DNA from: Alphaproteobacteria bacterium
GTDB taxonomy: Bacteria > Pseudomonadota > Alphaproteobacteria > Rhodobacterales > Rhodobacteraceae
Assembly (NCBI GenBank): GCA_030432315.1
Contig: JAUIHM010000016.1
Location: 1 to 46,466, forward strand
Reading direction: 5' to 3'
DNA: 46,466 nt
The notes beneath the pieces were generated by a model. That model was not told the DNA's origin. It ran no database searches and saw only the letters and a program-made list of their open reading frames with translations. The position numbers and the translations under genes were made by a program. Positions 26,959 through 45,538 of this stretch are shown in pieces (positions within the stretch are counted from its first letter, which is position 1; every line of letters begins with the position of its first letter).

Positions 26959-26992
26959 TACGGTGGCAGAGGACGCAGAGTGGAGAGTCGTC

Positions 26993-28454: not shown

Positions 28455-30503
28455 GTGAAACGATCAAGTACCATACTTCTTTCGGGGACGGCGCTTTGCC
28501 TGCTTTCAACCGGAGCGTTTGCCGCCTGTCCCGCAGTAACGGCTCAGGACATGATGGGTGTGTCCGAAGGGAAATATCCGCTCCAGTATGAGCGGGCGGA
28601 GTTCGAGGAACTGGCCGGATGCACCATGGAGTTCAGCGAGAACCCGGCGATTGCCGAGCTGAACGGGATGATCCGAAACAATCCCGATCTGCCGCCGCTT
28701 GCCGAGCGTCTGCCGGAAGAGCCGCTGGTGGTGGCGCCCTATGTGTCGATCGGCACCTACGGCGGAACGTTTGACGCGCTGTCGAATGCCACCGAGGCGG
28801 GGACATCGGATTTTCTGTCCACGCGGCACGTCAATCTGGTCCGGTATTCCGATGATCTGGAAACCATCGTACCGAACGTCGCCAGGGACTGGTCGTGGAA
28901 TGACGACTTCACCGAACTGACGTTCTATCTGCGCAAGGGGCACAAGTGGTCGGATGGTGAGCCGTTCACCGCCGAGGACGTCAAGTTCTGGTACGACAAT
29001 CTCGCGCTCGACCCGAACATCAACGAAAAGCCGAAGGATTACGTGCTGGTCGGCGGCGAGCGGATGACGGTTGAAGTGATCGATCCGGAAACCGTGGTTT
29101 TCAAGCTTCCGGCGCCGAAACCCGGGCTGCTGGCGCATTTCGCGACCTCCTTCGCCCAGGGATTTCAGCCGAAGCATTTCCTCGGCCAGTTCCATCCGGA
29201 CATCAACCCCGAAGCGGATGCGCTCGCGCAAAGCCTCGGGTTTGAGAACGGATATGCAGTCATTATGGCCTATTACGGCAATTCGGACTGGACCGATACG
29301 CCGTCGCCGATGCTGAATTCGCCGGACAAGGTCGCCAACATGCCGGCGGATGCGGTGCCGACGCTGGAAAGTTTCTTCGTGGTTCGTGATACCACGGAGG
29401 GACGGCATTACGTTGCCAATCCGTATTTCTTCATGGTGGATACGGCCGGCAACCAGCTGCCCTACATCAATGAGCAGGACGAGCTTTATGCCAATGACCA
29501 GGAAGTGCGGCTTCTGAAGCTGGTGAACGGCGAAGCGGACTACAAGGCCCAGTCGCTGCAGCTTTCCGATGTTCCGCTGCTGCTCGAGAACCAGGAGAAA
29601 GGCGACTACACGATCCAGTTGAAACCGAAAATCGCGATGCATGCGATTTCTTTCAACATCACCTCGGAGGACGAGGCGAAGCGGGAAGTGTTCGGTGATC
29701 TGCGGTTCCGAGAGGCGATGTCCCTCGCCATGAACCGGGAGGAGATCAACCAGGTTGCCTATTTCGGACAGGGGACGGTGCAACAGTACATCGGCTTCTC
29801 GCCGGCGCCGGAATTCGTCGATGAAAAGTGGCTGACCTACGCCACCGAATTCGATCCCGAGCGGGCAAATGCGCTGCTTGACGAGATCGGTCTGGTCGAT
29901 GCGGACGGCGACGGGTTCAGGGACCTTCCCAACGGCGAGCCGCTGGTGCTGAACCTTCAGTTCGCCACCCAGGGAATCGCCGGTCAGGTGGTCGAACTGC
30001 TCGGTCAGAACTGGCGTGATGTCGGGATCAATTCAACCGTCAAGGAGGTCACGCCGGACGAGTACCGTTCGGCGCAGTCGTCAAACCAGCTCGACGTCGG
30101 GCTCTGGGAAAAGAGCCAGCCGCTCGGCATCATCCTTGGCAACAACGAGCTCTGGGTTCCGCCGTTCGAGAACTACTTCGGCCATCGGACGGGCATGCTC
30201 TGGGCGGAGTGGGTCGATTCGGAGGGGGCAAGCGGCGTTGAGCCGCCGGATTACGTGAAGCAGCTTATCGCCGACATCAATGCGTTCCAGTCGACACCGT
30301 CCGGGACGGCGGAATTCGCGGAAATCGGTGCGCGGCTGGTCGAGAACATGACATCGAACCTGCTTTTCCTTGGCACGGCACTGACGCCGGATCCGATCTA
30401 CAGCCGCAACGTGCTGAAGAACGTTCCGGAGTTCAAGACGGCATCGTACGAATACTACCGTACATTCCCGTACCGGCCGCAGCAGTGGTTCCTCGACGAA
30501 TAG
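28455..30503 (+). CDS. ABC transporter solute-binding protein, peptide/oligosaccharide (SBP_bac_5) family
   Basis: The start is GTG 28455, eight bases after GGAGG. It gives a 682-residue protein with a signal peptide (VKRSSTILLSGTALCLLSTG, cleaved near AFA-ACP). The SBP_bac_5 core is clear: WSWNDDFTELTFYLRKGHKW near residue 145 and EPFTAEDVKFWYDNL near 175. At about 680 residues it is longer than DppA-type proteins (about 535) and like the large AgpA alpha-galactoside group, so a sugar-containing ligand is possible. It heads a five-gene importer that ends in a phosphonate monoester hydrolase. I infer an esterified or glycosylated phosphonate as ligand; a peptide or galactoside is the alternative. 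Confidence 0.85.
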   Translation: MKRSSTILLSGTALCLLSTGAFAACPAVTAQDMMGVSEGKYPLQYERAEFEELAGCTMEFSENPAIAELNGMIRNNPDLPPLAERLPEEPLVVAPYVSIGTYGGTFDALSNATEAGTSDFLSTRHVNLVRYSDDLETIVPNVARDWSWNDDFTELTFYLRKGHKWSDGEPFTAEDVKFWYDNLALDPNINEKPKDYVLVGGERMTVEVIDPETVVFKLPAPKPGLLAHFATSFAQGFQPKHFLGQFHPDINPEADALAQSLGFENGYAVIMAYYGNSDWTDTPSPMLNSPDKVANMPADAVPTLESFFVVRDTTEGRHYVANPYFFMVDTAGNQLPYINEQDELYANDQEVRLLKLVNGEADYKAQSLQLSDVPLLLENQEKGDYTIQLKPKIAMHAISFNITSEDEAKREVFGDLRFREAMSLAMNREEINQVAYFGQGTVQQYIGFSPAPEFVDEKWLTYATEFDPERANALLDEIGLVDADGDGFRDLPNGEPLVLNLQFATQGIAGQVVELLGQNWRDVGINSTVKEVTPDEYRSAQSSNQLDVGLWEKSQPLGIILGNNELWVPPFENYFGHRTGMLWAEWVDSEGASGVEPPDYVKQLIADINAFQSTPSGTAEFAEIGARLVENMTSNLLFLGTALTPDPIYSRNVLKNVPEFKTASYEYYRTFPYRPQQWFLDE

Positions 30504-30596
30504 CCCGGAGTCCAGCCATGACTTACAGGGCCGGCGCCGGACGCCGGCCCTGGATTGCCAGACAGTCGCCCGAACCGGGCAGGAGGTACCTCCGGA

Positions 30597-31604
30597 ATGG
30601 GTCAGTTCATACAGTTCGCGTTGACGCGTGCATTCCTGGCACTTGTGACGCTGCTGACGGTTTCACTGATCGTCTTCACGCTGATGGAACTGGTGCCTGG
30701 CAGCTGCGCTGAGAGGTATCTGGCATTCAAGAATACCCAAGGTGCGCAGATTTCGATTGCCGACATTCAGGCCGAAGAAAGAAGGCTCGGCCTCGACCGG
30801 CCGTTCGTCGAACGGTGGGGCAAATGGGTCGGCAACGTTTTTTTCCACGGTGAGTTCGGCGACAGCTGCATCCTGCGGCTGAACATCAACCAGCTTCTCG
30901 CCGACAAGTTCTGGATTTCGCTGGGCATATGTCTTTCGGCGCTGTTTCTGTCGTACATGATCGCGGTGCCGATCGGGATCCTTTCGGCGAGTTCGAGCAA
31001 TGCGCTGACCAACAATTCGCTGCGGCTGGTCAGCTATCTCGGTCTGGCCCTGCCGAACTTTCTGCTCGCGCTGATGATCATGCTGGTGTCGACGGTGCTG
31101 TTTGGGGATTCGCTTACTGGCCTGTTCTCAAAAGAGTACCGCGACGCGGCCTGGAGCTGGGCCAAATTCATGGATTTTCTGTCGCGCGCCTGGTTGCCGA
31201 TCTTCATCCTCGGCTGGTCGGCGACGGCGTTTGCGCTGCAGACGGTGCGGGCGCTGATGCTGGACGAGATCGGCAAGCTCTACGTGACGGCAGCGGCTGC
31301 GCGCGGCGTGACCGGGTCGCGTCTGCTGTGGCGTTACCCGGCGCGTCATGCGCTGGGGCCGGTGATCAATTCGCTCGGGTTTGATCTCAACCGGATCTTC
31401 AATGAACTGCCGATCGTGGCGTTGATCCTGACGCTGACCGAGGCCGGAGCGCTGCTGTTTGAATCGCTTGCGCGGTCGAACGACCAGCAGCTGGCGGGTG
31501 CCATTATCTTCCTGCTGACCGCCAGTATCGTGTTCCTGAATTTCATTACTGACATAATGCTGGCGTTGATTGACCCGAGGGTCCGGCGCGGACTGATCGG
31601 GTAG
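30597..31604 (+). CDS. ABC transporter permease (DppB/OppB type)
   Basis: The 335-residue protein has six membrane helices, with an N-terminal helix followed by a periplasmic loop of about 90 residues. The inner-membrane coupling loop is YVTAAAARGVTGSRLLWRYP near residue 235, the usual EAA site. ATG 30597 was chosen; AGGAGG (30581-30586) lies ten bases upstream. The AGGAGG belongs to a GGAGGTACCTCC palindrome that could fold back on itself. The binding-protein gene ends 93 bases earlier, and the second permease gene follows at once. Family is clear; substrate is not. Confidence 0.87.
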   Translation: MGQFIQFALTRAFLALVTLLTVSLIVFTLMELVPGSCAERYLAFKNTQGAQISIADIQAEERRLGLDRPFVERWGKWVGNVFFHGEFGDSCILRLNINQLLADKFWISLGICLSALFLSYMIAVPIGILSASSSNALTNNSLRLVSYLGLALPNFLLALMIMLVSTVLFGDSLTGLFSKEYRDAAWSWAKFMDFLSRAWLPIFILGWSATAFALQTVRALMLDEIGKLYVTAAAARGVTGSRLLWRYPARHALGPVINSLGFDLNRIFNELPIVALILTLTEAGALLFESLARSNDQQLAGAIIFLLTASIVFLNFITDIMLALIDPRVRRGLIG

Positions 31605-31611
31605 GGTGACG

Positions 31612-32805
31612 ATGTTCTGGAGACGAAAGAAGGCGGGCGCAGGCGTGGATCAGGAGGCCAAGGAGGCCTATTTCACCGCGTCCCAGGGGCAGTTGATCTG
31701 GTCGCGGTTCAAATCAAACCGGACCTCGATGATCGCGGGTTACGCGCTGCTGATCATCATCCTTATGGGGGTGTTCGCGCCGTTTCTCTCGCCCTACGAC
31801 CCGACAATTGCCGGTCGCGACCCGAACTATGAGAATGGAGCGCCGCAGATCCCGAAATTCTGGGATGAGAACGGGTTTTCCTTCCGACCGTTCATTTACG
31901 CCACGGAGCGTGAACGGTCCATGGCGACCAATTTCAGATGGGTCGTGACCCAGAACCGCGACGAGCGGCTCTACATGGATTTCTTCGTTCGCGGCTGGAA
32001 CTATTCCCTGTTCCATATCGACTGGGATTTGCCCGGGACCGCCTTTGATGTCGATGTGGCGCTGATCCGCTCCGACATACACCTCTTCGGGGTGGAAGGG
32101 GGCATGATCCATCTGTTTGGCACGGATGCCAGCGGCAAGGACATATTCGGCCGTACCCTGCACGCGATCTGGACCTCGCTGGCGGTCGGCACGCTTGGCG
32201 TGCTGATATCGTTTTTCCTGGCGCTGGTAATCGGCGGAATATCCGGTTACTTCGGCGGCTGGATCGACAGCGTGCTGCAGATGATTACCGATGCCATCCG
32301 AACCGTGCCGCCGATTCCGCTGTTCATGGCCTTCGCGGCCTTCATGCCCGATCACTGGAGTTCCGAGACGCGGTTCTTCTTCATATCGATCATTCTCGGG
32401 GTGATCGGCTGGCCCACCCTGGCCCGGCGCATCCGCACGCATCTTCTGACCGAGCGGACCCAGGAATACGTCCTGGCCGCAGAGCTCTGCGGTGCATCAT
32501 CGTCGCATGTGATCCGGCGTCATCTGCTGCCAAGTTTCACCAGCTACATCATCGTCGATCTGATGATTTCGTTTCCCTACATGGTGCGTTCTGAAACCGC
32601 GCTGTCGTTCATCGGTCTGGGGCTGAAGGATCCGGTCAATTCGCTCGGCGCGCTGATGCAGAACGTCAGCAAGGCGGATGTTCTGCTGAACTACCAGTGG
32701 TATTTCATTCCCGTGCTGTTCTTCATTGCCCTGGTGCTGGCGTTCGTCTTCGTCGGTGACGGGTTGCGCGATGCAGCGGATCCCTATTCGGGGACCAAGA
32801 AATGA
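31612..32805 (+). CDS. ABC transporter permease (DppC/OppC type) with a large extracytoplasmic insertion
   Basis: This 397-residue protein is long for the family (about 300). The first membrane helix (about 38-60) is followed by some 120 extra residues before GTDASGKDIFGRTLHAIW near residue 166, where normal OppC-type permeases resume. The EAA loop is EYVLAAELCGASSSHVIRRH near 283. The insertion is probably periplasmic and could contact the large binding protein. ATG 31612 (AGGGTG upstream) is preferred; GTG 31606 overlapping the previous stop is the alternative. It overlaps the following ATPase gene by four bases. Confidence 0.86.
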   Translation: MFWRRKKAGAGVDQEAKEAYFTASQGQLIWSRFKSNRTSMIAGYALLIIILMGVFAPFLSPYDPTIAGRDPNYENGAPQIPKFWDENGFSFRPFIYATERERSMATNFRWVVTQNRDERLYMDFFVRGWNYSLFHIDWDLPGTAFDVDVALIRSDIHLFGVEGGMIHLFGTDASGKDIFGRTLHAIWTSLAVGTLGVLISFFLALVIGGISGYFGGWIDSVLQMITDAIRTVPPIPLFMAFAAFMPDHWSSETRFFFISIILGVIGWPTLARRIRTHLLTERTQEYVLAAELCGASSSHVIRRHLLPSFTSYIIVDLMISFPYMVRSETALSFIGLGLKDPVNSLGALMQNVSKADVLLNYQWYFIPVLFFIALVLAFVFVGDGLRDAADPYSGTKK

Positions 32806-33815
32806 CGCAGCCGCTGCTTTCGGTCGAAGACCTGACAATCCGGTTCAATACCGACGAGGGGCTTGTCACGGCAGTGGACGACGTGTCGTTCGACATTGCC
32901 CAGGGCGAGGTCATGGGCCTGGTGGGGGAGAGCGGCTCGGGCAAGTCAGTGACCGCGAAGTCGATCATGCGGCTCAATGCCGGCAACACGCGGTATGATC
33001 CGGTGTCGCGGATCATGATCAACCTGCCCGACCGGAACGTGGACGTGCTCGCACTGCGGCGGGACAGGGATCTGCGGGTGGTGCGCGGCGGCGCGGTGTC
33101 TATGATCTTTCAGGAACCAATGGCCTCGTTCGCGCCGGCGATTACCGTCGGTCAGCAGATGGTCGAACAACTGCTGATTCACACGTCGATGAGCAAGGCG
33201 GAGGCGCGGAATCTTTCGATCGAGATGCTCGACCGGGTGGGGATACCGGATGCGTCAAAGCGGTTCGGCCAGTATGCGTTCGAATTCTCCGGCGGCATGC
33301 GGCAGCGGGCGATGATCGCCATGGCCCTGTCGACGCGGCCGAGACTGCTGATCGCCGATGAGCCGACAACCGCGCTGGATGTTACAATTCAGGCCCAGGT
33401 CGTGGATCTGATGAAGGACCTCGTGCGGGAGTTCGGCATGGCGATCCTGTTCATCACCCACGATCTCGGCGTGATTGCCCAGACCGCCGACAAGGTTGCG
33501 GTGATGTATCTGGGGCGCATTGTCGAGAAGGGGACTGTCCGGCAGGTGATCAAGACCCCGGCCCATCCCTACACGCTCGGTCTGATAAATGCGCTGCCGA
33601 AGCTCAATGATCTGGAGGCGGAACTGACTCCGGTTCCGGGCGACATTCCGTCGCCGCTGGACCGCCCTGCCGGCTGCGTGTTTCACACCCGCTGTCCGGT
33701 GGCGATCAAGGGGCGCTGCAGCAGCGAGGTGCCGAATTATACCGCTCTCAGCGGCGGCAGGGAGGTCGCGTGCCACCTCGTCGAAGAACAGGTGAAAGAG
33801 GGGGTCAGCCTGTGA
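32802..33815 (+). CDS. ABC transporter ATPase (DppD/OppD type)
   Basis: The 337-residue ATPase has Walker A GLVGESGSGKSVTAKS near residue 40, the signature FSGGMRQRAMIAMAL near 165, and Walker B LLIADEPTTALDVT with the catalytic Glu near 185. A C-terminal oligopeptide/dipeptide-type domain ends with a cysteine group (GCVFHTRCPV, GRCSS, ACHL), which in related proteins binds an Fe-S cluster. ATG overlaps the preceding stop (ATGA), and its own stop overlaps the GTG of the next ATPase. It forms a heterodimer with that protein to drive import. Confidence 0.9.
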   Translation: MTQPLLSVEDLTIRFNTDEGLVTAVDDVSFDIAQGEVMGLVGESGSGKSVTAKSIMRLNAGNTRYDPVSRIMINLPDRNVDVLALRRDRDLRVVRGGAVSMIFQEPMASFAPAITVGQQMVEQLLIHTSMSKAEARNLSIEMLDRVGIPDASKRFGQYAFEFSGGMRQRAMIAMALSTRPRLLIADEPTTALDVTIQAQVVDLMKDLVREFGMAILFITHDLGVIAQTADKVAVMYLGRIVEKGTVRQVIKTPAHPYTLGLINALPKLNDLEAELTPVPGDIPSPLDRPAGCVFHTRCPVAIKGRCSSEVPNYTALSGGREVACHLVEEQVKEGVSL

Positions 33816-34849
33816 GCAGGCCGGTTATCGAAGCGGTGGATCTGTCTGTGCGCTACCGGATCGGCAGCGGCCTGTTGGGCGGCCGATCGTACCTCAATGC
33901 GGTGGACCGGGTGTCGGTGTCGATCGGCCGGGGCAGCTTTTACGGCCTTGTCGGGGAAAGCGGCTCCGGAAAGACCACGCTCGGGCGGGCACTGCTGCGG
34001 GCGGCGCCAATTACCGAGGGCAGTGTCATCTATCAGGATGACGAGGTCAGGTACGATTTGCGCAACCTTTCGGCGCAGGATCTGAAGGACTACCGCAAGC
34101 GGGCGCAGCTGATCTTTCAGGACCCTTATGCGGCATTGTCGCCGCGCATGACGGTCAGGGACATCATTGCCGAACCGCTTGAGGTGATGGGCCTGACACG
34201 GAGCCGGGAGGAAACCGACGCGAGGGTCCGCGAGATCGCCGCCAAGTGCCGGCTGAACCTCGAACATCTGCGACGTTTTCCCCACGCATTTTCCGGCGGA
34301 CAGCGTCAGAGGATATCAATTGCCCGGGCGCTGGTTTCAAGGCCGAGATTCGTCGTCGCGGACGAGAGTGTCGCGGCGCTGGACGTGTCGATCCAGGCAG
34401 ATGTGCTGAACCTGCTGCAGGCGATCCAGCAGGAGATGGGCATTTCGTTTCTGTTCATAAGCCACGATCTGTCGGTTGTTGCCCATGTCTGTGATCATGT
34501 GGCGGTGATGTATCTTGGACAGCTGGTGGAAACCGCACCGACGGCGGAACTGTTTTCGCGGCCGCGGCATCCCTATACCAGTGCGCTGCTCTCGGCCATA
34601 CCGTCGCTTGACCCGGACGATCAGGGGAACGCGGAAAAGCTCGAAGGCGAGATACCGTCGCCGACAAATCCGCCACCGGGATGCAAGTTCCATACCCGCT
34701 GCCGCTTTGCGCGTGACGCCTGCCGGCTGGAAACGCCTGCCCTGCGGGAACTGTCGGCGGGGCATTTTGCCGCCTGTCACTTTGCCGAGGAGTTTGATTT
34801 TCGGCGCGAGCATGGCCATCAGACATCCCCGGTAAACGCCGGAGTGTGA
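33812..34849 (+). CDS. ABC transporter ATPase (DppF/OppF type)
   Basis: GTG 33812 overlaps the preceding TGA and follows GAGGGGG. The 345-residue protein has Walker A GLVGESGSGKTTLGRA near residue 44, signature FSGGQRQRISIARAL near 160, Walker B FVVADESVAALDVS with Ser after the catalytic Glu (DESVAALD rather than DEPTSALD), and the H-loop ISHDLSVV. The C-terminal domain holds a cysteine group (GCKFHTRCRFARDAC). A longer frame from 33770 is not used. The gene lies six bases before the phosphonate esterase gene, so the two are almost surely cotranscribed. Confidence 0.9.
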   Translation: MSRPVIEAVDLSVRYRIGSGLLGGRSYLNAVDRVSVSIGRGSFYGLVGESGSGKTTLGRALLRAAPITEGSVIYQDDEVRYDLRNLSAQDLKDYRKRAQLIFQDPYAALSPRMTVRDIIAEPLEVMGLTRSREETDARVREIAAKCRLNLEHLRRFPHAFSGGQRQRISIARALVSRPRFVVADESVAALDVSIQADVLNLLQAIQQEMGISFLFISHDLSVVAHVCDHVAVMYLGQLVETAPTAELFSRPRHPYTSALLSAIPSLDPDDQGNAEKLEGEIPSPTNPPPGCKFHTRCRFARDACRLETPALRELSAGHFAACHFAEEFDFRREHGHQTSPVNAGV

Positions 34850-34855
34850 CGCATC

Positions 34856-36364
34856 ATGACAGCGGGGCAGGGAAACGTCCTTTTCATCACCCTTGACCAG
34901 CTGTCCGCCGAGGTCCTGACCGGCAGTCTTTCGGCGTTTATCGAGACTCCGGCTCTGGACAGGCTGGCGGAATCGGGCTGCGTGTTCGAGCGGCATTACA
35001 CGGTCACGGTGCCCTGCGGTCCGGCGCGGGCCAGTCTTTTGACCGGGCTTTATGCGATGAACCACAGGGCGATCCGCAACGGCACTCCGCTTGCAGCGCA
35101 CCATGCGACGGTCGCAACCGAGGCGCGCCGTTCGGGTTATGAGCCGCTGCTGTTCGGTTATACAGATATCAGCCCCGATCCGGGGGGACTGAGCCCGGAA
35201 GATCCTGACCTGCAGACCTATGAGGGGGTTGCGCCTGGTTTTCGCGAACTGGTGGAAATGCGACTGGACGACGGATTTGAATGGCCGGGATGGCTGAGGT
35301 CGAAAAGCTACAGGTTTGACCCTGATGCACCTGGCCCGGTCGCCGACGTCTTTCGTCCGGTCACACCCGAGGGCGCGGTGCCGCGCCCAAACGATCCGGC
35401 ACTCTATGCGGCGGAGCACAGCGATACCGCGTATCTGACCGACCGTGCCCTTGCCGCGCTCGACATCAGGCGGGCGCGTCCCTGGTTTGCGCATGTCAGT
35501 TACATCCGGCCGCATCCGCCGTTTGTAGCACCTGCGCCCTACAACCGGCTTGTCGACCCGGCGGCTCTTCCGGAAGCCGAACGGCGGGCACCGCAGCATC
35601 CGTTCATGGACGCCTGGTTTTCGGCGGCTTCCAACCGCGGTCTGTACTACGGTTTTGACGGCGATTGCCGGGCCATGTCGCGGGAGACTGCTGGAGAGCT
35701 TCGGGCGGTTTATCTGGGGCTGATTGCCGAGGTCGATCATCACCTTGGCCGGATCCTCGACTGGCTGCGGGACACGGGGCAGGAGGACCGGACGCTGGTG
35801 GTGCTCACAGCTGATCACGGCGACATGCTCGGGGTCAAGGCGATGTGGGGCAAGGAGAGCGTCTTTGAGCCTGCGTTCCACGTCCCGCTTTTCATGCGCG
35901 ATCCGCATTCCGGTGTGGTCGGTCGGGTGGGCGCGCTGACCGAATCCGTCGATGTAGCGCCAACCATCCTGACCTGGATCGGCCGGTCGCCGCCTGCGGC
36001 GATGGACGGACGGTCGCTGTTGCCGCTGCTGTCGGGGGACACCCCTGATGGCTGGCGGGATGCCGTGTTCATGGAGGCGGATTTCGGGCATCCGGTGACG
36101 CCGACCCGGTTCCAGTCCGCGCTCGGCGTGGGGGAACGGGAGGCGACTGCGGCAGTTCTGCGCGAGGAGCGGTGGAAGTACGTGCATTTCGGTGGCGGCG
36201 TGGCACCGATGCTGTTCGATCTTCTGGCCGATCCCGGCGAGGCGGAAAACCTGGCCGGTCTGCCGGAACATGCCGGGGAGGTTTCAAGGATGGCGCGCAA
36301 ACTGATTGACCGGATGACGGAGCGAAGGGACCGGCGGCTGACCGGCATCACCGTCGGCACGTGA
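34856..36364 (+). CDS. Phosphonate monoester hydrolase/phosphodiesterase (sulfatase superfamily)
   Basis: This 502-residue protein of the alkaline phosphatase superfamily matches, as I remember it, Rhizobium leguminosarum PMH in many blocks: VPCGPARASLLTGLYAMNHR, SPDPGG near residue 105, YIRPHPPFVAPAPYN near 217, and ESIDVAPTILTWIG near 362. Cys54 (CGPAR) is the residue expected to become formylglycine. Metal ligands include Asp14 and Asp320-His321. The family splits phosphonate monoesters and phosphate diesters, and can also cleave sulfate esters at lower rate. There is no signal peptide, so it acts in the cytoplasm, downstream of import. Its gene is the last of the ABC operon and converges on pbfA. 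I infer release of 2-aminoethylphosphonate or similar. Confidence 0.82.
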   Translation: MTAGQGNVLFITLDQLSAEVLTGSLSAFIETPALDRLAESGCVFERHYTVTVPCGPARASLLTGLYAMNHRAIRNGTPLAAHHATVATEARRSGYEPLLFGYTDISPDPGGLSPEDPDLQTYEGVAPGFRELVEMRLDDGFEWPGWLRSKSYRFDPDAPGPVADVFRPVTPEGAVPRPNDPALYAAEHSDTAYLTDRALAALDIRRARPWFAHVSYIRPHPPFVAPAPYNRLVDPAALPEAERRAPQHPFMDAWFSAASNRGLYYGFDGDCRAMSRETAGELRAVYLGLIAEVDHHLGRILDWLRDTGQEDRTLVVLTADHGDMLGVKAMWGKESVFEPAFHVPLFMRDPHSGVVGRVGALTESVDVAPTILTWIGRSPPAAMDGRSLLPLLSGDTPDGWRDAVFMEADFGHPVTPTRFQSALGVGEREATAAVLREERWKYVHFGGGVAPMLFDLLADPGEAENLAGLPEHAGEVSRMARKLIDRMTERRDRRLTGITVGT

Positions 36365-36366
36365 GG

Positions 36367-36390
36367 CGGGCGCCGTCTGTTCTACGCCCG
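36367..36390. terminator. Possible weak hairpin between the convergent esterase and pbfA genes
   Basis: CGGGCG (36367-36372) can pair with CGCCCG (36385-36390) around twelve bases. The two genes stop only 17 bases apart, so there is no room for a separate terminator, and the right arm is inside pbfA. No T run follows. It is the only candidate seen. Confidence 0.25.
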
Positions 36391-37749
36391 TGCTGTTTCA
36401 GCGCGTATTGCCTCGACGACGATGTCCAGCGCAGCGCTCAGCTGTTCGCGGGTTATTGTCAGCGGCGGGGAAAGGGTGAGAACGTTTCCGGCGCTGATCT
36501 TGAAGCTCAGGCCGCCTTCGAGGCAGCGGTAGTAGATCCGTTCGGCGGTTCCGGCATCGGGCGTGCGCAGCTCGCGGCTGGAGATGATTTCGACGCCGAA
36601 CAGCAGGCCGCGACCGCGGATGTCGCCGACGATGGGGCAGCCGTCGAGACGGTCGGACAGCCGGTCGAGGGCGAACCGTCCGAGAATGGAGGCGTTTTCG
36701 ATCAGGCCTTCGTCCTCGATGATCTTCAGCGTTGTCAAAGCTGCGCGGGTGGTGATCGGATTTTTCTCGTGGGTATAATGGCCGATGGCGAAATCGCTGC
36801 AGATGTCGAGGCTGCGGTCTGCGATCACCGCGGCGATGGGCAGCATGGCGCCGCCGAGCGATTTTCCGAGAACGGCAATGTCCGGGATGATGTCGTCGTG
36901 CTCAAAGGCGAACATCCGGCCGGTTTTTCCGAGGCCGGTCGGTATCTCGTCCATGATCAGCAGCGCGCCGTGGCGGGTGCAGGCGTCGCGGACGGATTTC
37001 CAGAAACCGGGCGGCGGCACGACCGGAACCGCCCGCATCGGTTCCGCGACGACGGCGGCGACGTCGCCCTCGCGGGCAAGGACGTATTCGACCATGTTGG
37101 CGCAGGCGAGGCCGCAGGCTGACGGGCCGGGGTGGCCATAGGCGCAGTGGTAACAGTGGAACGGGGCGACGTGTTCGGTCCCCGGCAGCAGCGGGCCGGC
37201 GATGTGCGACCGAAAGGTCGCTTCGCCGCCCACGGACGCGGCACCAAACCCGGCGCCGTGGAAAGCGTCCCAGAAGCTGAGTGTCTTGAACCGCCCGGTC
37301 GCGGCCCGGGCGAGCCGCAGGGCAACCTCGATCGCATCGGACCCGCCGGTGGTGAACAGCACCTTTCCCAGATCGCCGGGGGCGAGCCGGCCGAGTTCTT
37401 CGGCCAGTTCCATTGCCGGGCTGCAGGCGAAGCGCCGTGGCGCGAAGGGCAGGTCGTCCATCTGCCGGCGGATCGCCTCCTTCAGGCGAGGGTGACCGTA
37501 GCTGATGTGATGGACGCTGTTGCCGTGAAAGTCCATGAAGCGGCGCCCGGCTGTATCTTCGATCCAGATGCCCTCGGCGCGGGCGATGGTGCTGACGCAG
37601 GGACTGGACAGGCTCTGGTGCAGGAACGCATCGGCGTCGCGTCTCAGCAGATCGCGCGTGGCCGGATCGGAGTTCCTCGCGTCCCAGTCGGCCCGCGCCT
37701 TTGAGGTGTTGGATTCTCCTTCGGTGTGAACGACCCTGGACGCGCGCAT
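36382..37749 (-). CDS. pbfA: PbfA-like (R)-1-hydroxy-2-aminoethylphosphonate ammonia-lyase (class III aminotransferase fold)
   Basis: The 455-residue class III PLP protein has Lys296 (VLGKSLGGAM) as Schiff-base residue and Asp267 (IMDEIPTG) for the pyridine nitrogen. The start FLHQSLSSPC, the block RRFMDFHGNSVHHI near residue 70, and a cysteine group at 199, 202, 212 and 216 match the subfamily whose member PbfA was shown to eliminate ammonia from (R)-1-hydroxy-2-aminoethylphosphonate, giving phosphonoacetaldehyde. That subfamily usually travels with phnW-based operons, as here: the gene lies four bases after phnY. A true transaminase role is the alternative. The product feeds PhnY. Confidence 0.75.
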   Translation of the reverse strand: MRASRVVHTEGESNTSKARADWDARNSDPATRDLLRRDADAFLHQSLSSPCVSTIARAEGIWIEDTAGRRFMDFHGNSVHHISYGHPRLKEAIRRQMDDLPFAPRRFACSPAMELAEELGRLAPGDLGKVLFTTGGSDAIEVALRLARAATGRFKTLSFWDAFHGAGFGAASVGGEATFRSHIAGPLLPGTEHVAPFHCYHCAYGHPGPSACGLACANMVEYVLAREGDVAAVVAEPMRAVPVVPPPGFWKSVRDACTRHGALLIMDEIPTGLGKTGRMFAFEHDDIIPDIAVLGKSLGGAMLPIAAVIADRSLDICSDFAIGHYTHEKNPITTRAALTTLKIIEDEGLIENASILGRFALDRLSDRLDGCPIVGDIRGRGLLFGVEIISSRELRTPDAGTAERIYYRCLEGGLSFKISAGNVLTLSPPLTITREQLSAALDIVVEAIRAETARA

Positions 37750-37753
37750 CCGC

Positions 37754-39196
37754 TCAGGTCCAGGGAAGGGAGAAGGTCTTGACGTTGGTGAAGCTCTTCA
37801 TCGCCTCCTTGACGCCTTCCTTGTAGCCGTTGCCACTGTCCTTGATGCCACCGAATGGCGACATTTCGATCCGGTAACCGGGCACCTCCCAGATGTTGAC
37901 GGTTCCGACCTTCAGGCCGGAGATGTATTTCTGCATACGGCGGAAATCGTTGGTGCAGACGCCGGATGAAAGGCCGAAGGCGGTCGAATTGGAGATGTCG
38001 ACGACCTTGTCGTCGTCGTCCGGAACGCGGATCACCGGAATGACCGGGCCGAAGGTTTCCTCCAACACCAGTTCGGAGCCGTGCGGAACCCGGTCGAGGA
38101 CGATCGGTGGCAGGAGTGCACCTTGGCGTCCGGGATTGTAGAGGATTTCCGCGCCCTGCCCAGCGGCGAGATGAACCCTCGATTCGAACAGCGCGGCGGC
38201 CTGTTCGCTGACGACGGTGCCAAGCTCCGTGCCTGCGGCCATGGGATCGCCAAAGGTGATCTGTCTGGCGCGCTCAAGCACCATCGGCACGAAACGGTCG
38301 GCGACACTCTCCTGACAGAGGATCCGCTTGACGGCGGTGCAGCGCTGTCCGGAGTTTTTCGTTGCCCCGAGAACGGCGAGTTCCGCGGCCTTTTTCAGAT
38401 CATCGTCGGAAAGATCATTCAGCACAATCAGCGGGTCGTTGCCGCCGAGTTCCAGAACCTGGCGCCGGTAGCCGGCTTTGGATGCGATCAGCTTGCCGAC
38501 CGGAACTCCGCCGGTGAAGGTAATGAGGTCGATGTCGGGATTGGTGATCATTTCATCGCCGATGGCATCGGGCAGGCCCGTGACCACCGACAGCATTTCC
38601 GGTGGCAGGCCGGCATCGTAGAGCACATCCGCAAGCAGCAGCGCCGTCATCGGCGTCAACTCGGTTGGCTTAACGACGATGCAGTTGTTGGTGGCGATGG
38701 CCGGAGCGATCTTGTGCGACACCATGTTGAGCGGATGGTTGAACGGGGTTATCGCCGAAAGTGCGCGGAGTGGCTCGCGGAGGGTGAAGATCTTCCGGGC
38801 CTTGCCGTTTGGCGTCAGGTCGCAGGAGAAGATCTCGCCGTCGTCCTGAATGCAGAGCTGGCCCGCGAGGGTGTAGACGTCGCAGGCGCGACCGACTTCG
38901 TAATAGCTGTCTGCTTTGGAAATCCCGAGCTCGAGGGTGATCAGTTCGGCAAACTCTTCGGTGCGCGCGACGAGAAGTTCCGCGGTTCTGAGCAGGATTG
39001 CCTGGCGTTCGTACCGGGTCAGCTTCGGTGTATAGGCCGCGGCGATGCTGAAGGCTTCGCGCGCGTGCCGCGCCGTACCCGCCGGCACGGTTCCGATCAC
39101 CGAATTGTCCCAGGGGTAATGCACCTCGATCAGGCCGTCGGCATCGACCTTGCTGCCGGCGATGCGCATCGGTTCGTGGCGGACGGTACGTGTCAT
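37754..39196 (-). CDS. phnY: Phosphonoacetaldehyde dehydrogenase
   Basis: This 480-residue ALDH has the catalytic cysteine Cys286 ([11 protein letters not shown]) and Glu249 (VLELGGNDP). The start is ATG 39196 ([12 protein letters not shown]), four bases after the phnA stop, because the frame extension to 39280 lacks similarity. Cys286, Arg285 and the NSGQRC motif resemble the Sinorhizobium meliloti PhnY pattern. It oxidises phosphonoacetaldehyde to phosphonoacetate with NAD+. Neighbours phnA and phnW give the flanking steps, so the substrate is well supported. A general ALDH identity alone would leave the substrate open; context decides. Confidence 0.9.
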
Positions 39197-39200
39197 TGGC

Positions 39201-40457
39201 TCATTTCCCCGCTGCGGCGTCGGTCGCGACCGCAAAAGCATCGAAGTTGCGCAGGGTCGGCGCGTTTGCCAGCCCGTCAAGATGCCGGTTCACGATAAAC
39301 GGGACTTCCTGTTCGGTCAGCCCGCCGTGGCTGCGCAGTGGTTCATTGAGGGCTGCAAGGTCGTGGCGGTGCGCCGACGTGCCGATGGTCATGTTCTCGC
39401 CGGAAATGAGGACGATGTCGCCGATCCGGTCGGCCGGCAGTTCAAACGCCTCGACCGCTTCTGCCCGGGTCATCACTGAAATCAGTTCGTCCCGTTCGCG
39501 AAGCCGTGCAACGATGGCGTCGACGTTGGCACCGTCCGGGAGATAGGCGGTGGCGAAGGCACCGAGGGCGCCGTGGTGGACGACATAGGGATCGGTGATC
39601 GGCAGGATCACCCGTGCCGCGGCTTCGCCGAGCCATTCGTCGAGCAGGTCCTGGACGTAGAGCACGTTTGGCTGGCCCGCAGCATTGTGTTTGGGTTTCA
39701 TTCCGTGGTCGGCGGTGACGACGATCGCGGCGCCAAGAGCGTCGAGTTCCGCGAGGTAGCGGTCGAACATCGCGTAGAACGCGTTTGCCTCCGGGTCACC
39801 CGGGGCATATTTGTGCTGCACGTAGTCAGTTGTCGTGAGGTACATGATGTCGGGCCGTTCCTCGCGCAGGAGTTTGACTCCGGCCGCGAAAACGAACTCC
39901 GACAGTTCACTCGAATAGATTTCGGGCACAGGCCGGTTCAGCCATTTCGAGGCGTTGTCCAGTCCGTTTTCCGCGACGCCCGTCCCGTCGGATTTCTCCG
40001 AGGAGAAGCAGAAAGCCTGGCCGTTTGCGCAGTCGAGTCCGGCGCCGAGCAGTGCGCGGAGCTTGTCCTTGGCCGTGACGATTGCCACTTTGGCGCCCGC
40101 CTGCTGGAATGCGGCGAAAATCGTCGGCGCCCGCAGAAAGCGCACGTCATTCATCATCACCTCTTCACCGGTTTCAGGCTCGAAGAGAAAGTTGCCACAG
40201 ATGCCGTGGATGATCGGCGGGCGACCCGTGGCGATGGAAAGATTGTTGGGATTGGTGAACGAAGGAATGACGCTGTGGGCGCGGCGCACGGTCCCCTTCG
40301 CCATGACCGCCTCAAGGGCCGGCATGAGCCCCTCTTCGATTGCCGCATCGAGATAGGCCGGTTCGCAGCCGTCGAGACATATGACGATGGCCGGAACCTG
40401 CGGCCACTGGTAGGTTCGGTCGTTCACGTCAACCGGGTGCTGTGTCGAATTGTTCAT
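39201..40457 (-). CDS. phnA: Phosphonoacetate hydrolase
   Basis: This 418-residue alkaline phosphatase-superfamily enzyme carries the full two-metal active-site set: Asp29 (ICLDGCEP), Thr68 (PSFTNPNN, the nucleophile), Asp211 and His215 (DYVQH), Asp250 and His251 (TADHGMKP), and His377 (RSHGGL). These positions equal the residue numbers I recall for S. meliloti PhnA. It cleaves the C-P bond of phosphonoacetate to acetate and phosphate. It should not be confused with PhnA of other organisms, an unrelated zinc-ribbon protein. It lies in the middle of phnW-phnA-phnY. The reaction step is firmly supported. Confidence 0.96.
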
Positions 40458-40514
40458 GTCGGGAGTCCACTCGGCTTTTCGGGTGACGTATGCCCGCGGT
40501 CGCGGCGGGCGGCT

Positions 40515-41753
40515 TCAGTTTACGGCAGCATGCTGATCCAGGGCAGTGAGACGCGCGCGTTCCGCAAGCGCCTCGGGGGGCGGGCTCGCCGAGACTACCC
40601 CCATTTCGTCGAGAGAGTCTCGGGTTGCGGCGACGACGCGTTCCATTATCCGGTGATCGATACGGCCGATGCAACCGATACGGAAACTGTCGACAACCGT
40701 CAGTTTGCCCGGATAGATGACAAACCCGCGGTCCTTCATCCGATCGTAGAAGGTCCCGAACCGGAAGGCCGGATCGGCGGGGTTGAAGAACGTGACGATG
40801 ATCGGAGACTGCCAGCGGTCCGGAAGCAGCGTTTCAAGGCCGATGCGCTTCATTCCGACAACGAGGGTATCGCGGTTTCTCGTATAGCGGGCGAGCCGCC
40901 CGGGCTGGCCGCCTTCCTCGGCGTGCATTTCCAGAGCGCGTATGAACCCGGCAACCACGTGCGTCGGAGGCGTAAAGCGCCAGAGTCCGGTGCGATTCAT
41001 GTAGGTCCATTGTGCGTGCACGTCGAGACTGAGCGAGTGACTTTGACCGGCGGCGGCTTCAAGCTCCTGCTTTTGGGCGATCAGAAACCCGAAGCCGGGA
41101 ACGCCCTCGATGCACTTGTTTGCAGATGAGACCATCGCCGTGAAGGGGAGGGTGCCGACATTGAGCGGCAGGGCGCCAAATCCCGACATGGAGTCGATCA
41201 GGAGCTTTTTGCCTGCTGCGTGCACGGCCTCGGCGATTTCCGCGATCGGGTTGAGAATGCCGGAACTGGTCTCGCAGTGGATAACGACGACGTGGCTGAT
41301 CGCCGGATCGGCCCGCAGCGCTGCGGCGACCTCGTCTCCGCGCGGCGGCAGGTAGTCGCCTTTGTCGATCAGCGCTGCCGCGCGCCCGAGATAGCGCAGG
41401 ATTTCGGCCGCGCGCAGTCCGTAGGCTCCGTTTGCGAGAACCAGCGCCTTTCCCTTCCTCGGGACAAACGACGCCAGCATCGCCTCGACACAGTAGGTCC
41501 CGCTGCCCTGAAGCGGCACGCAGTCGTAGTCGCCTGCGCCATCGCCCGCCATGGCCAGCAGACTGCGCCGCATCCCGGCAGTCATTTCCGAGAAATCGCT
41601 GTCCCAGGACCCCCAGTCGCGCAGCATCGCCGCCTTTACGGAAGGGTCCGTGGTCAGCGGGCCGGGGGTAAGCAGGTACGGATCCCGCAACGGTTCGATT
41701 GGGGCGGTGTCCGGATCCTGTGCACTCATGGCGGAACTCATTTGACTGTTCAT
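40515..41753 (-). CDS. phnW: 2-aminoethylphosphonate-pyruvate transaminase
   Basis: The 412-residue class V aminotransferase has PLP lysine Lys213 (SSANKCIEGVPGFGF) and Asp187 (LLIDSMSGFGA). LLTPGPLTTDPSVKAAML near residue 27 and DWGSWDSDF near 46 are PhnW signatures. ATG 41753 has GAGGAAA upstream, giving an extension of about 20 residues over the Salmonella enzyme. PhnW converts 2-aminoethylphosphonate and pyruvate to phosphonoacetaldehyde and alanine. It is the first gene of the leftward operon phnW-phnA-phnY-pbfA, 57 bases before phnA, and divergent from the lysR gene. Product flow to PhnY and PhnA is clear. Confidence 0.95.
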   Translation of the reverse strand: MNSQMSSAMSAQDPDTAPIEPLRDPYLLTPGPLTTDPSVKAAMLRDWGSWDSDFSEMTAGMRRSLLAMAGDGAGDYDCVPLQGSGTYCVEAMLASFVPRKGKALVLANGAYGLRAAEILRYLGRAAALIDKGDYLPPRGDEVAAALRADPAISHVVVIHCETSSGILNPIAEIAEAVHAAGKKLLIDSMSGFGALPLNVGTLPFTAMVSSANKCIEGVPGFGFLIAQKQELEAAAGQSHSLSLDVHAQWTYMNRTGLWRFTPPTHVVAGFIRALEMHAEEGGQPGRLARYTRNRDTLVVGMKRIGLETLLPDRWQSPIIVTFFNPADPAFRFGTFYDRMKDRGFVIYPGKLTVVDSFRIGCIGRIDHRIMERVVAATRDSLDEMGVVSASPPPEALAERARLTALDQHAAVN

Positions 41754-41870
41754 GTGCCGGGTTTCCTCTATTTCAATATATATGTAAAATCGTTATTTTG
41801 AATGATACTATAAATTCTGATGGCAGTTTGGCTGTGCGGGCCGAAGTCGCGCAGATTGTGGGAGGGACAC
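41754..41870. promoter_or_regulatory. Divergent phnW / lysR promoter region with AT-rich dyads
   Basis: A very AT-rich stretch (about 41765-41820) separates the two genes in otherwise GC-rich DNA. AAAAT (41786-41790) pairs with ATTTT (41795-41799) around CGTT. TTCAA (41772-41776) and TTGAA (41798-41802) form a wider pair. A TATAAA at 41809-41814 could be the lysR -10. LysR regulators typically bind such AT-rich dyads between divergent genes. GGAGGG (41861-41866) is the lysR ribosome binding site. Confidence 0.5.
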
Positions 41871-42752
41871 ATGCGCTATGTGCAGTTGAGGGCGTTTCAT
41901 CATGTTGCCGAACACGGCGGGTTTTCCCGGGCGGCCGAGGCTCTCGGGCTGACCCAGCCTGCAATATCCGATCAGGTGCGACGCCTCGAAAATGACTACG
42001 GCGTGCATCTGTTTGATCGTCGCAAGAAGCAGGTGCGGCTGACCCCGGCCGGTGAGAGCCTTGCGGCAATTACCCGGCGGATGTTCGAAAGCGAGCATCA
42101 GGCGCTGGAACTTCTGTCCGAATCGCGGGCGTTGCGGGACGGGCAACTGCGTATCGTCGCTGATTCCGCCCATCACCTGCTGAGGGTGCTTGCGCGGTTT
42201 CGCGAGAGGTTTCCAAAGGTTCGCATTTTCATAAGCGCAGGGAACAGCGTGACTGTTCTGGAGAAGCTTCAGTCCTACGATGCCGATATCGGAGTGATGG
42301 GCGAAGCGCCCAGTGGCCGCAGTTTTGACACCGTGGCGCTGAATTCGACGCCGGTCGTGGCGTTTGTTGCCGCCGGTTCGGAACTGTCGGGCCGTTCGAG
42401 CCTGGGATTTTCCGATCTGCAGACGGTGACGCTGGTCGTGCGCGAGGAGGGGTCGAAAACCCGGGTCAAGGTTCTGACCGCCGCTGAGCGGGCGGGTGTC
42501 ACTCTGGTACCCGGCATTGAGGCAGAGGGTCGTGAAGCGGTTCGCGAAATCGTCGCGTCCGGGGTCGGGGTGGGATTTGTCTCACGGGCGGAACTTGGCG
42601 ACGACGCTCGGATTGTTGCAATTCCCATTGAACCGGATGACGGCCTGCAGATGCATGAAGCTCTCGTCTGTCTCAAGGAACGCAGACAGGGGCGGCTGGT
42701 CAGCGCATTTTTCGACCTCGTTGCCGAGGAGGGTCAAAGGGCGGGGGCCTGA
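41871..42752 (+). CDS. LysR-family regulator of the phn operon
   Basis: The 293-residue protein has an N-terminal helix-turn-helix (residues about 1-62, FSRAAEALGLTQPAISDQV) and a C-terminal substrate-binding domain. ATG 41871 has GGAGGG four bases upstream; the frame back to 41820 lacks similarity. It lies divergent to phnW, so it probably activates or represses phnW-phnA-phnY-pbfA in response to an aminoethylphosphonate-type inducer. LysR regulators of this kind accompany many phosphonate operons, giving phosphate-insensitive control, but nothing in the sequence proves this. Its 3' end overlaps the end of ackA by 19 bases. Confidence 0.87.
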   Translation: MRYVQLRAFHHVAEHGGFSRAAEALGLTQPAISDQVRRLENDYGVHLFDRRKKQVRLTPAGESLAAITRRMFESEHQALELLSESRALRDGQLRIVADSAHHLLRVLARFRERFPKVRIFISAGNSVTVLEKLQSYDADIGVMGEAPSGRSFDTVALNSTPVVAFVAAGSELSGRSSLGFSDLQTVTLVVREEGSKTRVKVLTAAERAGVTLVPGIEAEGREAVREIVASGVGVGFVSRAELGDDARIVAIPIEPDDGLQMHEALVCLKERRQGRLVSAFFDLVAEEGQRAGA

Positions 42753-43903
42753 GCCTGTGCCGTTCGGTTTGCATCGAGCAGGCTCAGCGCCTCTTCGGCA
42801 ATGCTTCGTTCCTCGTTTGCCGGAAGAATCCACGCCGATACCGCGGAGCGCGGATCGGAGATGCAGGCGGCATTTGCAGCGTTGGCGGTGGCATCCGCCA
42901 CAAGGCCGGTCCATGCAAGTCCGCGCATGATCCTTTCGCGGATCTTCGGGGCGTTCTCGCCGATGCCGGCGGTAAAGACGACTGCATCGAGGCCGCCCAT
43001 TGCTGCGATCATTGACCCGGCGTGCCGTACTGCCCAGTAGCAGTAGTAGTCGACCGTAAATCGGGCCTCCGCATCGTCGCGGTCCAGAAGCTGCTGCATG
43101 TCCGGAGTGCCGCCCAGTGCCGTCAGCCCGCTTTCCCGGTTCAGCATGGCCGCAGTCCGGTCGATGCCCCAGCGTTCAGCAAGTGCAAGGACCGCGTTGC
43201 CGTCGATGTCTCCAACGCGGGTTCCCATCGCCATTCCGCTGAGGGGAGAATATCCCATGGTGGTGGCAACCGACATGCCGTTATGGAGGGCACACAGACT
43301 CGAGCCGTTGCCGAGGTGTAGCGCGAGAACGCGCGGCGGGAGCGGCGCCCCCGAGACCTGCGGAAGCCGTCCGGGGATCGCTGAATAGGAAATGCCGTGA
43401 AAGCCGAACCGGCGCAGGCCATCGCCGGTTTCGCCGAGCGGAAGCGCATAGCGCGTCGCGACGTCCGGATTGGACGCGTGAAACGCCGTGTCGAAGCTGG
43501 CGGTTTGCACCAGATGCGGCGCGTGGGCGGTGACCGCGTCGATTGCCGCGAGACCGTGTGGATTGTGAAGCGGCGCGAGATGTGCGCAGCGTTCGATGAC
43601 ATGGCGCACCTCAGGGGTGATCACGGCGGGGGCGGTCAGAACCGTGCCGCCGTGCACAATCCGATGCGCCGCCGCATTCAGGCTGCCGATGTCGATTTTT
43701 TCTTCAGCGAGGCCGTCAAAAATGGCACGGAGCGCAGCCCGGTGATCGGGCAGGGTCAGGTTCAGTGACCGGCCCCGGAGAGAGATCCGGGACCGGCCGC
43801 CAATTCCGCTCACATTGCCGGTGAGTTCCGGGTTCAGGTCTGCGTCGAAAACCGTGAACTTGATCGAGGACGACCCGGTATTGACGATCAGCAGTCCGTT
43901 CAT
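42734..43903 (-). CDS. ackA: Acetate kinase
   Basis: The 389-residue ASKHA-family kinase has NTGSSSIKF at residue 6, AHRIVHGG near 82, SFDTAFHA near 143 and the ATP-side VFTAGIGENAPKIRE near 315. ATG 43903 (MNGLLIVNTGSS) fits the family start; the frame back to 43969 is a shadow. AckA interconverts acetate + ATP and acetyl phosphate + ADP. Its neighbours give two uses: acetate from PhnA, or acetyl phosphate from sulfoacetaldehyde if Xsc is present elsewhere. No pta is in the window. It is transcribed with or after tpa, 132 bases upstream. Confidence 0.93.
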   Translation of the reverse strand: MNGLLIVNTGSSSIKFTVFDADLNPELTGNVSGIGGRSRISLRGRSLNLTLPDHRAALRAIFDGLAEEKIDIGSLNAAAHRIVHGGTVLTAPAVITPEVRHVIERCAHLAPLHNPHGLAAIDAVTAHAPHLVQTASFDTAFHASNPDVATRYALPLGETGDGLRRFGFHGISYSAIPGRLPQVSGAPLPPRVLALHLGNGSSLCALHNGMSVATTMGYSPLSGMAMGTRVGDIDGNAVLALAERWGIDRTAAMLNRESGLTALGGTPDMQQLLDRDDAEARFTVDYYCYWAVRHAGSMIAAMGGLDAVVFTAGIGENAPKIRERIMRGLAWTGLVADATANAANAACISDPRSAVSAWILPANEERSIAEEALSLLDANRTAQAQAPAL

Positions 43904-43970
43904 CCGCCAACCGCAGCGCAGTCCACATGGAGATTGGCGACCCCGACGCGCATGAGGGGACAATGCCATT

Positions 43971-45424: not shown

Positions 45425-45538
45425 TGTGCTCACCCCGAATATGCCCTGACTGGTCAGGGAGGATTGGAATCGAATGCCTGCGGAAGTATGCGACAATTGA
45501 CCGTCGCATCAAGAGGGCCGCCGGATGTCTCCGTCGGA

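Follow-up and report, generated by a model that had tools for sequence, protein, structure and literature searches.

Our analysis of a 46,466-base stretch of DNA, which is the entire contig C135 of a Rhodobacteraceae draft genome with 189 contigs and 86.6% completeness (the whole stretch is called the window below), suggests that two neighboring sets of genes probably make up one pathway, with an esterified aminoethylphosphonate at its entry. These are an operon for an oligopeptide (Opp/Dpp)-type ATP-binding cassette (ABC) importer with a gene like that of phosphonate monoester hydrolase (PMH) at its end, and the phn genes for breakdown of 2-aminoethylphosphonate (AEP). A first-pass annotation of the same DNA had recognized a five-gene importer operon ending in the PMH-like gene, 17 bases from convergent phn genes with a divergent lysR, and we found that both the open reading frames (ORFs) and the family models agree with this layout:

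28455..30503, plus strand: family 5 solute-binding protein (SBP) with a signal-like N-terminus (PF00496, E 2.4e-57; 20 orthologue N-termini compared)
30555..31604, plus strand: Opp/DppB-type permease (PF00528, PF19300)
31606..32805, plus strand: Opp/DppC-type permease (PF00528, PF12911 (OppC_N))
32802..33815, plus strand: Opp/DppD-type ATPase (PF00005, PF08352)
33812..34849, plus strand: Opp/DppF-type ATPase (PF00005, PF08352; ORF open from 33770, GTG at 33812 the likely start)
34856..36364, plus strand: PMH-like protein of the formylglycine type, without signal peptide (PF00884; PehA 450 bits; PDB 4upk; C54, Y102, D104)
36382..37749, minus strand: pbfA (NF049939 650.7 bits, cut-off 525)
37754..39196, minus strand: phnY, phosphonoacetaldehyde dehydrogenase (TIGR03250 791 bits, cut-off 636)
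39201..40457, minus strand: phnA, phosphonoacetate hydrolase (TIGR02335 517.6 bits, cut-off 408)
40515..41753, minus strand: phnW, 2-aminoethylphosphonate-pyruvate transaminase (NF010006 538 bits, cut-off 296; TIGR02326 457 bits, cut-off 401)
41780..41791, minus strand: GATTTTACATAT element between lysR and phnW, a candidate operator or promoter element
41820..42752, plus strand: lysR, nearest to the AEP-catabolism type (AepR-like; TIGR03339 phn_lysR 318 bits, cut-off 341)

The 17 bases separate the end of the PMH-like gene (36364, plus strand) from that of pbfA (36382, minus strand), and lysR diverges from the minus-strand row of pbfA, phnY, phnA and phnW. Within the importer operon the second permease and first ATPase genes, and likewise the two ATPase genes, overlap by 4 bases, and the PMH-like gene begins 6 bases past the last ATPase gene, so that it looks like the final gene of the importer operon. 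The SBP ORF is open from 28398 and the previously proposed GTG at 28455 is a plausible start; for the DppB-type permease an ATG near 30597 was judged by eye to be the likelier start, and the phnY ORF is open from 39280 with an internal ATG at 39196. PbfA, PhnY, PhnA and PhnW all score above their curated family cut-offs, and TIGR03339 is the best model for LysR yet stays under its own (318 vs 341 bits). Compared with known AEP hydrolytic clusters (phnW-phnY-phnA or phnW-phnX, pbfA and lysR) the window holds all of the catabolic genes, lysR being the one gene under its cut-off, and differs by an entry through the Opp-type ABC importer plus PMH.

Evidence that these genes belong together comes from 198 genomes of the family, sampled at roughly one per genus, in which SBP orthologues were taken at E ≤1e-90 and members of the PMH clade at ≥330 bits, a cut set within a gap between 332 and 262 bits. 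The SBP was found in 36 genomes, PhnW in 42 and the PMH clade in 39, a count that omits G191 (262 bits, 40%) and G198 (252 bits, 38%), both possibly PMHs, as well as the weaker ones of the 95 matching genomes. SBP and PMH occur together in 30 genomes where 7.1 are expected (p 1e-21), SBP and PhnW in 29 (7.6 expected, p 2e-18), and PMH and PhnW in 30 (8.3 expected, p 4e-18; Fisher's test with kinship ignored in each case). Moreover, they lie within 15 kb of each other in 23 (SBP-PMH), 16 (SBP-PhnW) and 18 (PMH-PhnW) genomes, where random placement would give 0.25-0.44; linkage thus exceeds chance about 38- to 88-fold and holds in differing gene orders. G119 was scored as unlinked since it is split across contigs, though its PMH adjoins ABC genes on the other contig (L104). 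On these co-occurrence and linkage counts we rejected chance adjacency, and the association of this ABC type with PMH and PhnW, for which the earlier annotation had proposed a search, recurs in different genera and also in loci assigned to other classes.

The gene orders vary considerably. L067 resembles the window with an additional EamA gene, and the order ABC-phnW-phnX-PMH on one strand is found in L040, L048, L073 and plasmid pSC52_2, where the gaps from the last ATPase through PMH measure 22, 22 and 19 bases. Others show phnW-phnX-PMH-ABC (L072), phnYAW with lysR followed by PMH-ABC (L059, L069, L070 and L062), lysR and phnW-phnX-ABC with a convergent PMH (L042, L061 and L068), or ABC-NptA-phnWAY (L065). 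In public genomes we collected at least 80 loci, which overlap the 198-genome set (for example L130 with L062, L138 with L067, and L172 with L074) so that the counts are not independent; of the 80 listed, 34 have a PMH of at least 40% identity nearby, 26 have a phn gene and 42 have at least one of the two, and among the 47 of at least 20 kb the corresponding numbers are 24, 23 and 30. The listed carriers include metagenome-assembled genomes (MAGs) labelled Gammaproteobacteria, SAR324 and Pelagibacteraceae, the labels being as given. The SBP closest to that of the window in our tree (77% identical) comes from L119, a MAG labelled Granulosicoccaceae (Gammaproteobacteria), whose locus holds lysR, phnWAY, pbfA, ABC and PMH; either the locus passed from one class to another or the MAG was misbinned.

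On the SBP tree of 63 rows, a quick one without bootstrap and with linkage labels set by hand, explaining the phn-linked label takes 14 changes, of which 13 are forced by well-supported branches, compared with a mean of 19.9 for shuffled labels, and the count is overstated because some ‘unlinked’ rows are short contigs. We regard the ABC-PMH pair as a probable movable front end. That an ordinary oligopeptide or oligosaccharide importer came to lie beside phn genes through chance or hitchhiking we find hardly credible: the closest solved SBPs do include pectin- and alpha-galactoside-binding proteins, and its plasmid-borne relatives come mostly from rhizobia, at about 31% identity, but both the recurrent linkage and its many changes along the tree speak against it. 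Seven loci (L126, L163, L187, L189, L190, L191 and L195) hold related ABC importers whose surroundings lack both PMH and phn genes, and no common partner was noticed among them.

The importer itself carries the hallmarks of the Opp/Dpp type, namely SBP_bac_5, OppC_N and two ATPases with oligo_HPY, and none of its five proteins reached an Opp, Dpp, Nik or Gsi equivalog cut-off (for the ATPases, among the best 25 of 187 models). Its SBP belongs to PF00496 and to neither the PhnD (PF12974) nor the AepX (TIGR03261) type, which bears out the earlier statement that the importer family differs from known AEP importers. The solved SBPs nearest to it are the pectin-binding SPH1118 and the periplasmic alpha-galactoside-binding protein 6EPY, with which it shares the large family 5 (cluster C) architecture. 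However, the arginines with which SPH1118 binds acidic sugars match L140, Q385, Q525, P553 and N583 in the window SBP, and an acidic-polysaccharide binder like SPH1118 was rejected on these grounds, the alignment being a distant one (236 bits) that deserves moderate trust. At SPH1118-matching positions T136, D300, Q385 and Q525 are invariant across 20 orthologues. From its sequence and surroundings we infer that the SBP may be a binder of an AEP ester.

Additional support comes through a second ABC type that holds the corresponding place beside phnW in other genomes. Of its proteins we scored 10, and nine binding proteins (TIGR03261) and one permease (TIGR03262) were all above cut-off, making it the AepXVW type, whose SBP (SBP_bac_6-like) and fused permease belong to families other than those of the window importer. 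Within 15 kb of phnW in 42 genomes we found the Opp-type SBP in 16, AepX in 11, both in none and neither in 15, and AepX occurs anywhere in the genome in 1 of the 16 SBP-linked genomes versus 15 of the 26 other PhnW genomes (Fisher p 0.0008). Five genomes with AepX at phnW carry the Opp-type SBP elsewhere, and in G046, G139 and G190 a PMH lies within 15 kb of that SBP. The genome of the window, at 86.6% completeness, has no PF12974 (PhnD) or TIGR03261 (AepX) match above cut-off; PhnJ was likewise not found in it, and a C-P lyase was set aside as a candidate. The exclusion at phnW would also be expected if the importer simply took free AEP or 1-hydroxy-AEP in place of AepXVW and the PMH had an unrelated target, and the ABC importer does stand with phn genes and without PMH in L122, L133 and L174, the last two of which also have an AepX-type SBP. 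We give this little credence, since no other gene accompanies the ABC importer as often as the PMH does (23/36 genomes within 15 kb), since the PMH is kept with it in distant operons that lack phn genes, and since oligopeptides and oligosaccharides are typical of what family 5 (cluster C) SBPs bind. An ABC-PMH entry that would replace the free-AEP importer of other genomes at phnW remains our preferred reading.

The best solved-structure match of the hydrolase is 4UPK, named a phosphonate monoester hydrolase (463 bits), followed by 4UPH, named a sulfatase protein (365 bits), 2VQR (345 bits) and 2W8S, again named a phosphonate monoester hydrolase (332 bits). 4UPK we take to be a protein of Ruegeria pomeroyi, and 2W8S is presumably the Burkholderia PMH, an enzyme reportedly discovered through its action on glyceryl glyphosate. 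The window protein is homologous to 2VQR, 4UPK and 2W8S across nearly its full length, with the same Cys, Tyr and Asp signature. According to the accessible parts of one study, in which 2VQR is RlPMH, two active-site positions hold Tyr and Asp/Thr in PMHs versus Lys and His in related new arylsulfatases (PMC5488252). In the window protein these positions are Y102 and D104, and the cysteine of the formylglycine motif (C-x-P-x-R) is C54 in CGPAR. We compared the signature in the loci of 29 relatives from 40 matches listed and found PMH residues in 19 (18 Y/D and one Y/T, 37-66% identical) and the arylsulfatase pair K/H in 10 (32-34% identical). Over all loci, counted redundantly, each of the 104 matches at ≥37% identity is Y/D or Y/T, and below 37% there are 15 K/H, 3 Y/D, 1 H/H and 1 F/D. 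Likewise Cys/Tyr/Asp was present in 43 of the 44 matches from 44 loci that were picked by hand and have importer or phn neighbors, the sole exception being a second paralogue in L075; a partial match in L084, also Cys/Tyr/Asp, fell under the length limit. An arylsulfatase is thus disfavored, and the PMH identity given in the first-pass annotation holds up through these residues. The NCBIfam PehA equivalog cut-off was not reached (450 vs 900 bits), and therefore we call the protein ‘PMH-like’ and not PehA in the narrow sense. It belongs to the PMH family by sequence, and a phosphonate monoester would be the expected substrate. A homologue of the formylglycine-generating enzyme is present in the same genome.

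In the window and most relatives the catalytic domain begins about 10 residues or fewer from the likely PMH start, too close for a signal peptide to fit in front of it, while the SBP has a signal-like start; this call rests on reading N-termini, as the hydrophobicity scores of PMHs (0.04-2.13) and SBPs (0.88-2.61) overlap. Ester cleavage should then come after import, in agreement with the cytoplasmic release suggested before, and because of the importer type and the absence of a signal peptide on the PMH the ester would enter intact. We suggest that the family 5 SBP captures a small ester of AEP or 1-hydroxy-AEP in the periplasm, that the Opp-type ABC complex imports it intact, and that the PMH cuts its P-O-C ester bond to yield AEP and an alcohol. 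PhnW would convert AEP to phosphonoacetaldehyde, from which PhnY and PhnA would produce acetate and phosphate (or, in relatives, PhnX acetaldehyde and phosphate), and PbfA would channel the 1-hydroxy compound into phosphonoacetaldehyde. The family chemistry of PhnW, PhnY, PhnA, PhnX and PbfA is well established.

Which ester is taken up can be approached through genomic context. We found distant ABC-PMH operons (L047 and L084-L089; SBP 35-42% identical) that possess a DeoR/GlpR-type regulator, a glycerol-3-phosphate (G3P)-oxidase-like FAD enzyme and a second oxidoreductase, each in 6/7, as well as a choline/ethanolamine-kinase-like gene in 5/7 and a glycerol-kinase homologue in L047, although the oxidase and glycerol-kinase scores are under the curated NCBIfam cut-offs. 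A Ruegeria conchae plasmid shows the order PMH-DeoR-IMPase-amidohydrolase-GS-ALDH-FeADH-EamA-DeoR-ABC (IMPase, inositol-monophosphatase-type; GS, glutamine synthetase-type; ALDH, aldehyde dehydrogenase; FeADH, iron-type alcohol dehydrogenase), and no PhnW, PhnA, PhnX or PbfA match was found in this 28-kb stretch. A glutamyl-ethanolamide route has been proposed for Streptomyces, its alcohol step being assigned, in the accessible parts of the article, to another predicted dehydrogenase type (PMC6529630), and the GS, ALDH and formylglutamate-amidohydrolase genes correspond to steps of this route. Among the 36 SBP neighborhoods of the family an IMPase gene occurs in 6, GS in 4 and the amidohydrolase in none; phosphatase, synthetase or iron-type alcohol dehydrogenase homologues are found in 9/36, 5 of which also have phn genes. 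The genome of the window carries GS, ALDH and FeADH in a row on another contig (C105, L202:8257-12195), 59-67% identical to the importer-side modules. Loci with an IMPase-type gene and an ethanolamine-type module weigh on the notion of a phosphonate-only role.

From such neighbors one might argue that the ABC-PMH pair scavenges phosphate diesters, for example glycerophosphoethanolamine, and that its closeness to phn genes marks a general organophosphorus island, with the PMH acting as phosphodiesterase, an IMPase-type enzyme freeing phosphate, and GS, ALDH and FeADH (with the amidohydrolase in one case) burning the ethanolamine. PMHs hydrolyze phosphodiesters besides phosphonate monoesters, as stated in the accessible parts of two articles (PMC5649143, PMC5488252), and the R. 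conchae module without phn matches, its fit to the Streptomyces route, the IMPase and GS neighborhoods, the G3P-oxidase-like genes of the distant operons and the GS-ALDH-FeADH row elsewhere in the genome are all as this explanation would have it. We nonetheless consider it unlikely, because one clade of the SBP tree has phnW and phnX embedded within its ABC-PMH operon, because of the AepX exclusion at phnW, and because neither IMPase nor GS adjoins the cluster in the window. It is possible, though we would not count on it, that the ABC-PMH pair serves 2-aminoethyl-phosphorus esters of both kinds, glyceryl-AEP from deacylated phosphonolipids and glycerophosphoethanolamine from deacylated phospholipids. 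The double activity of PMHs, known for a long time, would in that case be what selection acted on instead of promiscuity, with a PhnW branch downstream for the C-P product and a phosphatase/glutamyl-ethanolamide-like branch for the phosphate product. In L074/L172, L071, L065 and L162 phn genes and parts of the phosphatase/ethanolamine branch are both found beside the importer.

Returning to an AEP ester as the entry compound, the first-pass annotation had proposed import of esterified or glycan-linked aminophosphonates. The recurrence of importer, PMH and PhnW supports the ester part; the glycan part in particular is not supported, for the G3P-type and ethanolamine-type neighbors and the replaced SPH1118 arginines favor a small aminoethyl-phosphorus ester over a glycan. 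As G3P-type genes adjoin the distant ABC-PMH operons, glycerol, as in deacylated phosphonolipids, is our favored guess for the alcohol.

In the gap between lysR and phnW the GATTTYACATAT element, which was picked by eye from the very sequences used for counting, recurs with ≤1 mismatch in 12 of 18 lysR-phnW regions, the window included. Upstream of 14 SBP genes no match was found at ≤2 mismatches, and joint control of the importer operon through this element was therefore rejected. That the whole block forms one regulatory unit is thus not supported, and the importer operon is probably under separate control. In 7/36 neighborhoods a DeoR-type gene is found close to the importer. Also in 7/36 (L043:5919-7598, L045, L065, L068, L071, L074 and L075) we observed a Na/Pi-cotransporter with a PhoU domain, which perhaps exports surplus phosphate.

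Several observations weigh against a single ester-to-AEP pathway. Besides the missing element upstream of the SBP genes and the PMH-less loci L122, L133 and L174, 12/36 family neighborhoods lack PMH, phn and ethanolamine-type genes (several being on short contigs), and among the 47 long listed public loci both PMH and phn genes are absent from 17. G113, G163, G177 and G244 possess the SBP with no PMH-clade or PhnW match at our thresholds; in G244 phnY adjoins the SBP. The distant ABC-PMH operons show no phn gene in the available stretches (that of L088 being short upstream), and the nearest solved SBPs bind oligosaccharides. Finally, the 9-kb flanks of an R. pomeroyi PMH homologue (46%) on the megaplasmid contain no importer of this ABC type and no phn genes, unlike those of the window gene, which is part of a dedicated importer operon next to the genes for AEP breakdown.

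Some further neighbors were not counted in the unit. Beyond lysR lie an acetate kinase-like gene (42734-43969, minus strand), which overlaps the lysR end and could use PhnA-derived acetate, and a second class III aminotransferase (44036-45496, minus strand) that is not PbfA-like (NF049939 231 bits, cut-off 525); the 80 listed related loci yielded no AckA. On the other side a metallophosphoesterase (26963-27805) is a possible but doubtful member, as a tRNA-Gly separates it from the SBP. SpdA-like metallophosphoesterase homologues were seen between phnY and pbfA in L062 (17219-18001; 33% to that of the window) and adjoining phnY in L069 (1-591; 34%).

With respect to earlier work, the accessible parts of PMC8154272, PMC10590968, PMC12366243 and PMC8316502 name no PMH or peptide-type importer with AEP clusters or importers, and two sections of one review list no family 5 importer (PMC10574752). 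Within the open-access literature, a scope that makes this weak evidence, no publication was found in the accessible text that connects PhnW with either PMH or a family 5 importer. In the parts at hand PMC4744853 has PMH within a reference title alone, and PMC5649143 discusses phnW for certain isolates and, separately and without linking the two, a Sulfitobacter homologue of PMH. Phosphonates of marine high-molecular-weight dissolved organic matter (DOM) are polysaccharide esters of methyl- and hydroxyethylphosphonate, and alkaline-phosphatase-like enzymes were postulated to free DOM phosphonates, with a PMH homologue pointed to (PMC5649143). One carrier of the genes studied here is a sea cucumber gut isolate, and others are labelled Ruegeria spongiae and Osedax symbiont; such carriers would fit invertebrate hosts rich in phosphonolipids, as described in the available part of PMC6429109.

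In summary, we consider AEP catabolism with an ester-specific front end to be the probable function of these genes. If this is true, PMH, whose physiological role has been unclear so far, would gain a testable natural job, and phosphonate uptake would gain a binding-protein family outside the PhnD and PhnS/AepX families. The cluster could supply phosphorus, nitrogen and carbon from bound phosphonates, and AEP esters, besides free AEP, would then feed the marine phosphorus redox cycle.

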